34,515 bases of DNA from Burkholderiales bacterium. Lineage in GTDB: Bacteria > Pseudomonadota > Gammaproteobacteria > Burkholderiales > Casimicrobiaceae. Under the pieces are notes generated by a model. The model had not been told where the DNA came from, made no database searches, and saw nothing but the letters and a program-made list of their open reading frames with translations. Shown piece after piece: positions 1,452 to 27,132 of the stretch. Each line of letters starts with the position of its first letter. Position 1 is the first letter of the stretch. The translations under genes and the position numbers were made by a program. The stretch is taken from positions 1 to 34,515 of the forward strand of contig CAJPFI010000003.1 of NCBI GenBank assembly GCA_905339295.1, given 5' to 3'.

Positions 1452-1541
1452 TCGGGGTCAGAGCCGTAACAATTCGCTCTGCGGCGGGCGTGCGACAGAG
1501 TCCAGCGGATCGACGCTGAACAGTTACGGCTCTGACCCCGA
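1452..1541. repeat. Inverted-pair repeat element, family B, overlapping the 3' end of dusA
   Basis: Perfect 19-base arms lie at 1452-1470 and 1523-1541 (core GGGGTCAGAGCCGTAAC), separated by 52 bases. The spacer contains a smaller inverted repeat (CTCTG at 1477-1481 with CAGAG further right). The element fills most of the gap between two convergent genes. The right arm supplies the last codons and the stop of dusA. The same core is found in four arms at 26969-27132. Confidence 0.9.
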
Positions 1542-2510
1542 ATTCTCGACCTCCGCGAGCGCCTCGCGCAGCAATCCCGCTCCGGCCTCCTTCAGCCGCC
1601 GCGCGTCGGACAGCAGCTGGCGGTAGCGGCGCCCGCCGCTCACGCCGTGGTAGAGCCCCAGCATGTGGCGCGCGATCGCGCGGAGCGGCGTGCCGCGCGC
1701 GACCTGCGCCGTGACGTAGGGCAGCATCGCCTCGACGACCGCCGCGCGCGTCGGCGGCGGCTCGTCGGACCCGAACAGGCGCGCGTCGACGTGCGCGAGG
1801 AAGTACGGGTCGTGGTACGCGATGCGGCCCAGCATCACGCCGTCGACCGTCCCGAGCTCCTGCTCGATCGCGCGCCAGTCGGCGAGCCCGCCGTTCAGCA
1901 CGATCGTCGCGTGCGGGAAGTCGCGCTTCAGCCGGTGCACGACCTCGTAGCGCAGCGGCGGAATCTCGCGGTTCTCCTTCGGCGACAATCCCCTGAGCAC
2001 CGCATTGCGCGCGTGGACGATGAACGCGCCGCAGCCCGCGTCGGCGACGGTCCCGACGAAGTCGCGCACGAAGCCGTAGTCCTGGCTCGCGTCCAGGCCG
2101 ATCCGGTGCTTGACCGTGACCGGAACGGTCACCGTTTCGCGCATCGCGCGAACGCAACGCGCGACCAGCCCGGGATCGGCCATCAGGCACGCGCCGAAGC
2201 TGCCGGTCTGCACGCGCTCGGACGGACACCCGCAGTTCAGGTTGATCTCGTCGTAGCCCCAGCGCTCGCCGAGCATCGCGGCATGCGCGAGATCGGCCGG
2301 ATCGCTTCCGCCGAGCTGCAGCGCGAGCGGTTGCTCGGACGGATCGAAGTCCAGGTGGCGCGGCACGTCGCCGTGCTTCAGCGCCGGCGCCGTGATCATC
2401 TCGGTGTACAGGCGCGCGTGCCGCGAGAGCCTCCGATGGAAGTAGCGGCAGTGCCGGTCGGTCCAGTCCATCATCGGCGCGACGCAGAAGCGGTGCGAAA
2501 GGTTTCTCAT
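1524..2510 (-). CDS. dusA: tRNA-dihydrouridine(20/20a) synthase DusA
   Basis: DusA reduces uridine 20/20a in the tRNA D-loop with FMN and NADPH. The 328-residue product has the FMN-barrel start (VAPMMDWTDRHCR), the catalytic-cysteine loop LNCGCPSERV (Cys95 matches the E. coli proton donor), VKHRIGLD and the DusA-type GVSGGRRYRQLL segment near the C-terminus. The ATG at 2510 (MRNLSHRF) fits the family; an in-frame TTG at 2543 would add 11 residues without family support. No strong Shine-Dalgarno sequence precedes 2510. Its last residues, Gly-Ser-Glu-Pro, and the TAA are encoded by a copy of the family B repeat, so the C-terminal tail is not native to the family. Confidence 0.95.
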   Translation of the reverse strand: MRNLSHRFCVAPMMDWTDRHCRYFHRRLSRHARLYTEMITAPALKHGDVPRHLDFDPSEQPLALQLGGSDPADLAHAAMLGERWGYDEINLNCGCPSERVQTGSFGACLMADPGLVARCVRAMRETVTVPVTVKHRIGLDASQDYGFVRDFVGTVADAGCGAFIVHARNAVLRGLSPKENREIPPLRYEVVHRLKRDFPHATIVLNGGLADWRAIEQELGTVDGVMLGRIAYHDPYFLAHVDARLFGSDEPPPTRAAVVEAMLPYVTAQVARGTPLRAIARHMLGLYHGVSGGRRYRQLLSDARRLKEAGAGLLREALAEVENSGSEP

Positions 2511-2836
2511 CGGCACGAGGCTCTCGACGCCCGGTCGATCCAATGGACCCTTCGAGCGGGGGTCATTTTATCGCCCCGCAGGTACCGGCCGTCGCGGCGC
2601 CGGCGCAGGGCACGCGCAAGCCGGGGCTGGAGATCACCTGCGCGGACAGCCTGTTCGTGCCAGGCTTCGGTGACGGGCATTGCGGATCGAGCGGCCGGAG
2701 GACAGAATGTCCCGGCGCAGAGTGCCTGAAGGCCCCTGAGCGGCGCGCTGCCGTCGCCGTCGGGGGAATCCGCGCGCGAGAACAGCGGGATCGAATTCCT
2801 CTCGGACGATGCCGCACGCAAGGGAGCGGCCGTGTC
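2511..2836. other. Divergent intergenic region between dusA and the MBL-receiver gene
   Basis: This 326-bp gap separates two divergent start codons. A leftward -10 box for dusA is visible at 2565-2570. On the right, AGGGAG around 2821-2826 is a plausible but distant ribosome binding site for the ATG at 2837. I see no riboswitch, convincing small gene or terminator in it. Confidence 0.6.
2565..2570 (-). promoter_or_regulatory. Candidate -10 box for dusA
   Basis: Read leftward, the sequence is GATAAAATGA, giving a TAAAAT hexamer (five of six matches to TATAAT) about 55 bases upstream of the dusA ATG. The surrounding GC-rich sequence makes this AT patch stand out. No clear -35 box was found. 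Confidence 0.4.
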
Positions 2837-25127: not shown

Positions 25128-25901
25128 ATGAGCCCGCCTGCCCATCCCCTCCGCGCGAAGCTCGCCGCGGGCCGCACGCTGGCCGGCATCTGGTCGGTCA
25201 TTCCCTCGGCGCCGCTCGTCGGCACGCTTGCCGCGGCCGGATTCGATTTCCTCGTCCTCGACGCGGAGCACGGCAGCTACGACTTCGCGACGCTCGACGC
25301 CGCGATCACCGCGTGCGAGGACGGCGGTGCGTCGCCGCTCGTGCGCTCACCCGGCGCCGACGCGTTCTTCATCCAGCGGGCGCTCGACCTCGGTGCCGAC
25401 GGCGTCGTCGTGCCGCAGGTGGCCGACGCGGACGCTGCGTCGCGCGCGGTCGCGATGATGCACTACGCGCCCGGCGGCACGCGCGGCTACAACCCGTTCA
25501 CGCGCGGCGGGCGCTACGGCATCGCCCCGCAGCCCAAGCTCGCGGCGGGCTACCCGTTCTCGGGGGTGATGGTCGAGTCGCCGGCCGCCGCCGAGCATCT
25601 CGAGCGCATCGTCACGCTGCCGCAGCTCGACTTCGTCTACCTCGGCATCTTCGACTACTCGGTCGCGATCGGCGCGCCGGGCGAGGTCGACGACCCGCGC
25701 GTGCGGTCGTTCATCGAGCGCTCGGCGAGGATCGCACGCGGCGCGGGCAAGGCGGTCGGCACGACCGCGATGAACCGTGCGCAGGCCGACCGCCTCGTCG
25801 CGCAGGGCGTCAACATGCTCTTCTGGGGCACGGACACCTGGCTCGTCGGGCGCGGCGCGAAGGAGGCCCTCGACCTCTACGCAGCGGCGGCGAAGCGATG
25901 A
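25128..25901 (+). CDS. HpcH/HpaI aldolase family protein
   Basis: The 257-residue TIM-barrel protein belongs to the class II pyruvate aldolases (4-hydroxy-2-oxoheptanedioate or 2-keto-3-deoxy-L-rhamnonate aldolase type). It has FLVLDAEHGSYDF (Glu47-His48), a substrate arginine Arg73 in PLVRSPG, GADGVVVPQV, the pyruvate-loop GTRGYNPF, and metal ligands Glu150 (VMVESP) and Asp176. The last metal segment reads YLGIFDYS instead of the usual GPxDLS, so the substrate pocket may differ. The ATG at 25128 has only a weak upstream site. It is coupled by ATGA to the following dehydrogenase. Confidence 0.9.
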   Translation: MSPPAHPLRAKLAAGRTLAGIWSVIPSAPLVGTLAAAGFDFLVLDAEHGSYDFATLDAAITACEDGGASPLVRSPGADAFFIQRALDLGADGVVVPQVADADAASRAVAMMHYAPGGTRGYNPFTRGGRYGIAPQPKLAAGYPFSGVMVESPAAAEHLERIVTLPQLDFVYLGIFDYSVAIGAPGEVDDPRVRSFIERSARIARGAGKAVGTTAMNRAQADRLVAQGVNMLFWGTDTWLVGRGAKEALDLYAAAAKR

Positions 25902-26989
25902 CCGCGGCACGGCACGACGCCCGTGCGCTCGTCGGCTTCGCGCACGCGCTTTTCACGCGTGCCGGCATGCGCGACGACATCGCGCGCGACGTCGCGGACG
26001 TCCTGGTCGACGGCGACCTGCTCGGCCACACGACGCACGGGCTCGCGCTCGCCGCGCTCTACCTCGACGAGCTCGCGAAGGGCTCGATGACCCGGTCGGG
26101 GGAGCCGCGCGTCGTCGCCGCGGCGCCCGCGGCGCAAACCTGGGACGGTGGCCGCCTGCCGGGCCCGTGGCTCACGCTGCGCGCCCTCGACGCCGCGATG
26201 ACGATGGCGTCGACGCAGGGCACCGGCACCGTCGTGATCCGCCGCTCGCACCACATCGCGTGCCTCGCCGCCTACCTCAGGCGCGCGACCGACCGCGGAA
26301 TGATGGCGCTCGTCCACTGCTCCGATCCGGTCGCGGCGAGCGTCGCGCCCTTCGGCGCGGTCTCGGCGGTGTTCACGCCGAACCCGCTCGCGGCGGGCAT
26401 CCCGACCTCGGGCGACCCGATCCTGCTCGACGTGTCGGCGAGCTACACGACCAACGGGCTGACCGGCCGGCTGCACAAGGCGGGGCGGAAGCTGCCGCAC
26501 CCGTGGGTGCAGGACGCGCGGGGCAACGCCACCGACGACCCGCGCGTGCTGTTCGAGGAGCCGAAGGGAACGCTGCTGCCGCTGGGCGGCCTGGACGCCG
26601 GCCACAAGGGCTATGCGCTCGCGCTCCTGATCGAGGCGACGACCGCGGCGCTCTCCGGGTTCGGGCGCGCCGACCCGAAGGAAGGCTGGGGCGCGACGGT
26701 GTTCGTTCAGGCGCTCGACCCGCGCGCGTTCGGCGGCCTCGACGCGTTCCGCCGCCAGATGGACTGGCTGGTCGCGGCCTGCCACGACGCGACGCCGCGG
26801 CCCGGCGTCGAGCGCGTGAGGCTGCCGGGGGAACGGGGACTCAAGCTCATGCGCGAGCAACTCGCGCATGGCGTCGAGCTGCATCCGACCATCCTGCCCG
26901 CGCTGCGTCCCTGGGCGGAGAAATTCGGCGTGCCCGTTCCGGCGGCGAACTTGAACTTGGGGTCAGAGAACTTGGGGTCAGAGCCGTAA
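25898..26989 (+). CDS. Ldh2-family NAD(P)-dependent oxidoreductase (malate/ureidoglycolate dehydrogenase type)
   Basis: The 363-residue protein has the Ldh2 hallmarks HTTHGLAL (catalytic His47), VIRRSHHIACLAAY, VFTPNPLAAGIPTSGDPILLDVSAS and LGGLDAGHKGYALALLIE. Enzymes of this family reduce or oxidise 2-hydroxy/2-keto acids such as malate, ureidoglycolate, sulfolactate or delta1-piperideine carboxylate. Its place after a pyruvate-type aldolase suggests a 2-keto acid substrate, not further defined. The last 12 residues, NLNLGSENLGSEP in part, and the TAA are encoded by one and a half copies of the family B repeat; family members normally end near the preceding GVPVP. Confidence 0.9.
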   Translation: MTAARHDARALVGFAHALFTRAGMRDDIARDVADVLVDGDLLGHTTHGLALAALYLDELAKGSMTRSGEPRVVAAAPAAQTWDGGRLPGPWLTLRALDAAMTMASTQGTGTVVIRRSHHIACLAAYLRRATDRGMMALVHCSDPVAASVAPFGAVSAVFTPNPLAAGIPTSGDPILLDVSASYTTNGLTGRLHKAGRKLPHPWVQDARGNATDDPRVLFEEPKGTLLPLGGLDAGHKGYALALLIEATTAALSGFGRADPKEGWGATVFVQALDPRAFGGLDAFRRQMDWLVAACHDATPRPGVERVRLPGERGLKLMREQLAHGVELHPTILPALRPWAEKFGVPVPAANLNLGSENLGSEP

Positions 26990-27132
26990 CATTCGCCGAG
27001 AACTTGGGGTCGAGAACTTGGGGTCAGAGCCGTAACATTCGCCCGCGACGGAACCGCAACCGGTTGAGTCGGTTCGAGCGAATGTTACGGCTCTGACCCC
27101 AAGTTCAAATGTTACGGCTCTGACCCCAAGTT
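26954..27132. repeat. Nested family B element between two convergent genes, contributing both stop codons
   Basis: Forward arms (AACTTGGGGTCAGAG, then CCGTAACATTCGC) are complete at 26969-26996 and 27015-27042, with partial copies at 26954-26968 and 27001-27011. Reverse arms are at 27078-27105 and 27108-27132. The arms 27015-27042 and 27078-27105 form a perfect 28-bp inverted repeat with a 35-bp spacer that itself contains GAACCG/CGGTTC. The left copy gives the TAA of the Ldh2-type gene, and the right copy gives the TAA of prmC. Nothing else lies in 26990-27111. Confidence 0.95.

Follow-up and report, generated by a model that had tools for sequence, protein, structure and literature searches.

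Introduction

Repeats tied to Y1 transposases have been described in several arrangements, cited here from the parts of the sources that were used. In TIRtrons, a Y1/HUH gene is flanked by GGGGWSAS inverted repeats, and the TIR repeats that accompany TIRYT transposases are spread as dimers and clusters (Di Nocera et al., 2013; PMC3733652). TIRYT has been equated with TnpA_REP subclass 2.1 (PMC6006769). The termini of GTAG REPs often give flanking open reading frames their TAG stop, and GTAG and CGTC REPs prefer convergent and tandem gaps (PMC3733652). REPINs are built of palindromic REPs in an inverted pair that forms a hairpin, and are tied to a Y1 transposase (PMC3116915). E. coli REPs near stops form a stable hairpin where translation ends, after the stop (PMC12306157). 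Here, a hairpin element was analyzed in a stretch of 34,515 nucleotides (nt) from a bacterium of the Casimicrobiaceae, order Burkholderiales (contig CAJPFI010000003.1, positions 1 to 34,515; assembly GCA_905339295.1; hereafter the window). The element is an inverted pair of a short core enclosing a variable loop, and the core supplies the last four codons and the stop to three genes of the window: dusA, a gene for an Ldh2-type enzyme (malate/L-lactate dehydrogenase family), and prmC. Very probably, this non-autonomous element settles at gene 3' ends, and the overlaps retained are mainly those in its early-stop phase, with stop and tail supplied by the element.

As in TIRtrons, the genome has a Y1/HUH gene between GGGGWSAS inverted repeats, and the repeats occur as dimers and clusters. 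Stop supply by TIR-type repeats goes unmentioned in the part of PMC3733652 used; here it was counted, and it tracks the stop phase. With GTAG REPs, the element shares a stop provided by a repeat at the gene 3' end and a preference for convergent and tandem gaps, and given that precedent, stop supply by a palindromic repeat is not new in principle. The TAG of GTAG REPs is a terminal tag, however, whereas here the stop lies inside the core after four codons, so that a tail is added; in the listed flanks and cores, no short self-complementary stem with a GTAG or GTGG tag next to it was present. Like REPINs, the element is an inverted pair that forms a hairpin, but its arm is not a REP proper, and unlike at the E. 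coli REPs, the stop lies inside the stem. Literature searches for GGGGTCAG returned unrelated papers only, among those listed, and those for stop-supplying repeats found one relevant statement, in PMC3733652; for literature outside these searches no claim of absence is made.

Results

Core repeat, hairpin and tail in the window

The window holds six exact copies of the 17-mer core GGGGTCAGAGCCGTAAC, arranged in inverted pairs or arrays that span 1454-1539 and 26974-27127 (Table 1). Matches with up to 3 mismatches numbered 7, vs. 0.07 expected from shuffles, which rules out chance as the source of the copies. In the whole genome (4.03 Mb in 60 contigs, 98% complete) there were 39 exact copies of the 17-mer, mostly in inverted pairs and arrays, and 79 of GGGGTCAGAG; reversed (read-backwards) core patterns gave 0 matches in the same genome. 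No Rfam family or tRNA was detected in the window at the thresholds used.

A preliminary description of this DNA had called the repeat family palindromic. That wording is corrected here: the 17-mer is no palindrome by itself but forms one arm of an inverted pair, and the pair folds into a single long hairpin. When four elements were folded as RNA, each (4/4) gave one long stem (-53 to -76 kcal/mol, z -6.6 to -13.3) with the TAA inside it. The description of the three gene ends was confirmed. Read toward the tail, the 17-mer has a stop in only one of its three phases, and GGG TCA GAG CCG TAA is read in that same phase at the stops of dusA (1524-1526), the Ldh2-type gene (26987-26989) and prmC (27112-27114). 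The native family endings lie just ahead of the element-coded tails, where the family models are nearly complete: TIGR00742 was matched to 317/318 at residue 333 of 339 in DusA, TIGR03534 to 252/253 at residue 280 of 291 in PrmC, and the Pfam Ldh_2 model to 332/333 at residue 336 of 363 in the Ldh2-type protein. As a further correction, the last protein ends in NLNLGSENLGSEP, owing to a direct repeat of 15 nt that is partial.

Homologues without the tail

Relatives were compared by genome (G numbers) and fetched locus (L numbers), and the genome of the window is called 'own'. The GSEP ending was absent from all 17 other DusA homologues in the genus and from all 17 complete other PrmC homologues (one further PrmC was cut by a contig end). 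Many of these proteins end near the point where the tail starts here, and several have longer, divergent ends. HemB, which also meets an element in this genome, ends ...ARWLK-GSEP. None of the 13 other HemB homologues read to their native stop has the tail; they carry 1 to 13 residues after W-L, and one ends exactly ...ARWLK-stop (4 other rows were dropped, 2 mis-extended by the script and 2 cut). In G004, hemB has its native stop and a sister repeat starts 5 nt downstream. A conserved protein motif as the source of the tail was rejected on these tail-free homologues.

The core GGGGTCAGAGCYGTAA was present in 6 of 60 relatives, all 6 of the same genus, and in 0 of 39 relatives from other genera. 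Two cores tried in other genera were rare there (9 matches in 5 genomes and 9 in 4 genomes), and because both were so scarce the other-genus controls are uninformative.

Gene ends at elements across the genome

Genes were called by a codon-usage script around 55 outer element ends, each with 200 nt or more of sequence beyond it. No gene read toward 19 of these ends (within 120 nt), a gene stopped before the core at 19 (16 of them within 20 nt), and at 17 the gene ran into the core. The run-ins are strongly biased in phase: 14 end at the element TAA (phase 3), 2 are in phase 2 (L031, ending at 59, and L048, whose coding score is weak, ending at 47), and the remaining one is within dnaE2 (phase 1). 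The 14 products are DusA, the Ldh2-type enzyme, PrmC, a LysR-type regulator, an MsnO8-family oxidoreductase, an alpha/beta hydrolase, HemB, a 213-residue protein without a family, RsmG, a GGDEF protein, a sugar-type ABC ATPase, MltB, glucose-6-phosphate isomerase (Pgi) and GatA. Their tails are GSEP in 11, GSEL in 2 and GSAP in 1.

In-frame repeats of this kind in dnaE2 were seen at one site in own (L048:13524-13600), G016 (L219), G004 (L223) and G002 (L226), and at an earlier site in G015 (L334). REPs have also been reported in dnaE2 genes of other bacteria, in the part of PMC3733652 used.

Phase in sister families

Sister families were tabulated by one script, the same for all genomes; the counts for G012 and G004 cover part of the copies, among the matches listed. 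With the same kind of core as in own, 8 of 9 run-ins in G012 (among the matches listed) and 2 of 2 in G017 were in phase 3. In one G012 gene the first stop is gone, and the gene ends in the copy that follows. Pooled over own, G012 and G017 without dnaE2, 24/27 run-ins were in phase 3 (P = 3e-9 vs. one third).

The G015 core, GGGGTCAGACTCGATTGA, has its early stop in phase 1. Four of its six run-ins end at that stop, one passes through in phase 3 and one is inside dnaE2; the tails are GVRLD or RVRLD, and the switch of phase was significant (P = 2e-4). From family to family, the phase in use at gene ends shifts with the place of the early stop in the element itself, and the portable stop proposed in the preliminary description is supported to this extent. 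The G004 core, GGGGTCAGACTCG, has no early stop in most copies, and only 1 of 25 gene-facing ends ran in (among the matches listed; own vs. G004, P = 4e-4). G001 had 0/7 overlaps and G009 no gene-facing end (0 of 2). Pooled, the stop-bearing families differed from G004 and G001 (P = 0.003). A separate table of GSEP-type copies held, for G016, one gene with a GSAP-stop ending and one ending 1 nt into the core; the same table had no gene overlap in G015 or G004.

In G015, 7 of 27 stops preceding the core have their end exactly 5 nt from it, within a TGATCAA-like tag (L311, L316, L322, L323, L328, L330); the stop may therefore also come from this tag or be targeted by it. At a gene ending ...KLQTIFTSD-stop, presumably MreB, different repeat families lie just 3' in own (L054:3681-3800) and G015 (L328:2011).

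Transposase

A single Y1_Tnp gene was found in the genome (L031:11569-12294), flanked by inverted cores GGGGTCAG at L031:11466(+) and 12390(-), which are terminal repeats of the GGGGWSAS type. The product matched PF01797, the Y1 (IS200-like, HUH) model, with 44 bits (cut-off 23) and NF047646 (NCBI REP-associated tyrosine transposases) with 64 bits, below the cut-off of 80. It carries HVH at residue 76 and RYIDLNP at residue 135, and no solved structure matched its sequence at E 0.001. Membership in TnpA_REP subclass 2.1 is likely.

Relatives at 62-72% identity are encoded in G012, G018 and G016 (broken). At E < 1e-49 the genus yielded 13 strong matches, counting own. Inverted GGGGTCAGA cores stand on either side of 7 of them: own, G012, G018, G016 (broken), G015, G002 and G009. 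In own, G012, G018 and G015, the core flanking the transposase gene resembles the core repeated in the same genome. Core copies also crowd round the gene on contig C44 (L031:3168-15938), where 3 of the 4 divergent gaps with an element are located.

Location, flanks and arrays

In this genome, elements were found in 26 gaps, of which 12 are convergent, 10 are tandem and 4 are divergent. Gaps without an element at these loci sum to 1542 nt (convergent), 14412 nt (tandem) and 6765 nt (divergent). Convergent gaps make up 12/26 of the gaps with elements vs. 6.8% of element-free intergenic bases (P = 4e-8).

In own, the two flanks of an inverted pair resemble each other within a locus: the mean matching run was 4.2 nt vs. 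0.7 for mismatched loci (25 pairs; 0/20000 permutations). For 12 simple pairs the mean run was 3.0 (0/20000 permutations), but it was 0-2 in 7 of the 12, and in G018 and G015 much of the flank match is a shared tag. Inverted copies of flanks at one locus were seen at L043:3716-3853 (hemB), L053:3634-3714 (mltB/pgi) and 26936-27150 of the window; at hemB the flank falls in the W-L codons, which are common to the homologues. Convergent genes share flank-plus-element peptides, NLGSEP in the Ldh2-type protein and PrmC and NSGSEP in MltB and Pgi.

Where arrays have at least 2 copies per arm, the spacings are mirrored over the shared part in 8/8 arrays of G012 (L164, L167, L169, L170, L176, L182, L212, L214) and mirrored in 3/3 of G004 (L344, L345, L348), both among the matches listed, with spacers that are nearly identical and locus-specific. 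None was exactly mirrored among 4 arrays in own and 1 in G015.

Table 1. Features at the two element sites of the window
Feature	Position	Strand	Remark
Core copy, left arm of inverted pair	1454..1470	+	exact match
Core copy, right arm, gives dusA codons GGG TCA GAG CCG TAA	1523..1539	-	exact match
Hairpin element, 24-nt arms 92% complementary	1452..1541	.	folded on dusA strand as 1446-1547, -60.1 kcal/mol, z -8.2
dusA, ends ...EVENSGSEP-stop, start codon uncertain	1524..2543	-	stop 1524-1526
Ldh2-type (malate/L-lactate dehydrogenase family) gene, ends ...NLNLGSENLGSEP-stop, start codon uncertain	25898..26989	+	stop 26987-26989
Partial copy of flank and GGGGTCAGAG	26953..26968	+	partial copy
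Core copy giving Ldh2-type gene its stop	26974..26990	+	exact match
Core copy, inner left arm	27020..27036	+	exact match
Core copy, inner right arm	27084..27100	-	exact match
Inner hairpin element, 32-nt arms 97% complementary	27014..27106	.	folded as 27012-27108, -72.3 kcal/mol, z -13.3
Core copy giving prmC its stop	27111..27127	-	exact match
prmC, ends ...VVAGRNLNLGSEP-stop, start codon uncertain	27112..27987	-	stop 27112-27114

A shorter perfect palindrome, GGGGTCTGACCCC, was also seen near gene ends, in the window at 17599-17627 and 29686-29694 and elsewhere at L033:761 and L051:2575. In L033 and L051 the gene ends at a TGA inside the palindrome (...GV-stop).

Discussion

We propose that GGGGTCAGAG-type terminal repeats, as an inverted pair round a variable loop, are probably moved by the single Y1 (RAYT/TIRYT-type) transposase of the genome. 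The elements come to lie near gene 3' ends, chiefly where neighboring genes are convergent or tandem. An element landing in the last few codons would let the reading frame run into it, and such overlaps are seen almost only in the phase with an early element stop. The host gene would then lose few C-terminal residues at most, and poorly conserved ones, while gaining an element-coded tail, GSEP, GSEL or GSAP here and GVRLD or RVRLD in the sister family. Because the phase tracks the stop, survival of the least harmful insertions explains the bias best, which would arise as insertions in the other phases are selected against; neither a fixed target phase nor a conserved protein motif predicts such tracking.

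Several observations weigh against this account. The G018 core bears a stop and had 0/20 overlaps (own vs. G018, P = 1.5e-4), so a stop alone does not lead to overlaps. Two or three genes run through the core in other phases. Inverted cores stand on both sides of only 7 of the 13 strong transposase relatives, 6 being without them, and G017 has 10 core copies and no transposase relative detected. The counts are of sites, not of independent events, and rest on home-made gene calls. Neither movement nor a strain-level empty site was seen, and the tail-free homologous ends, at 59-84% protein identity, are too distant for an exact empty site.

A preference of the transposase for a sequence or structure at stops or gene ends (small palindromes, for example) would place the bias in the target and not in selection. 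The short distance between native stops and cores in own, the exact 5-nt distance of some stops, with the TGATCAA-like tag, in G015 and the locus-specific inverted-repeat flanks in part of the pairs would all fit such a preference. It is nevertheless unlikely as the source of the bias, as the phase differs between sister families exactly as the stop does, and a target rule would need to track the inner letters of the element. Target preference may still account for how near the elements lie to gene ends.

The preliminary description had also suggested that the portable terminator explains the spread of the family, a stop in one phase being an adaptation that lets the element multiply in a gene-dense genome. 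Although the stop is tolerated by 14 functionally diverse genes, and the families of own, G012, G017 and G015 each bear an early stop in one phase, this part fared poorly and we consider it very improbable. The stop is not shown to be an adaptation, because the stopless G004 core reaches 67 + 77 copies (144); G018 has the stop without overlaps, and 19 gene-facing ends in own follow a native stop and leave that of the element unused. A terminator role is not needed for spread, and survival of the neutral phase, which the same description had offered as an alternative, fits better. Retention of the tail or hairpin by the host, to tune protein level, mRNA stability or turnover, would suit a TAA inside so stable a predicted stem and E. 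coli REPs at most 15 nt from a stop, said to stall ribosomes (the part of PMC12306157 used, citing other work), but it is just as hard to credit, since the tailed genes have no evident common pathway, no tailed DusA, PrmC or HemB orthologue was found in the genus, and the tail merely follows the letters of the element in each family.

Beyond selective survival of insertions, fold-back copying may actively perfect the palindromes, an idea we hold to be possible but doubtful. A hairpin would copy its left flank, including the last codons of the host gene, to the right side, and duplicates in one arm would be mirrored in the other. This would account for the locus-specific inverted flanks, the mirror-symmetric arrays and the peptides shared by convergent genes; the arrays of own (0/4) and G015 (0/1), none exactly mirrored, count against it. 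Insertion at the centre of pre-existing palindromes could give the same flanks and arrays, as in part could draft assembly, many genomes of the relatives being drafts.

With selective survival of insertions, what was a single sentence in the REP literature becomes a rule that can be tested: a mobile repeat overlaps a gene end mainly in its early-stop phase, and sister families with stops in different phases are natural controls for it. Tails such as GSEP, GSEL and GVRLD may be derived from repeats and are not to be taken for conserved motifs. The mirror-symmetric arrays pose the question of how such palindromes grow, and if fold-back copying is true, the element would write the coding sequence of one gene's end into that of its neighbor.

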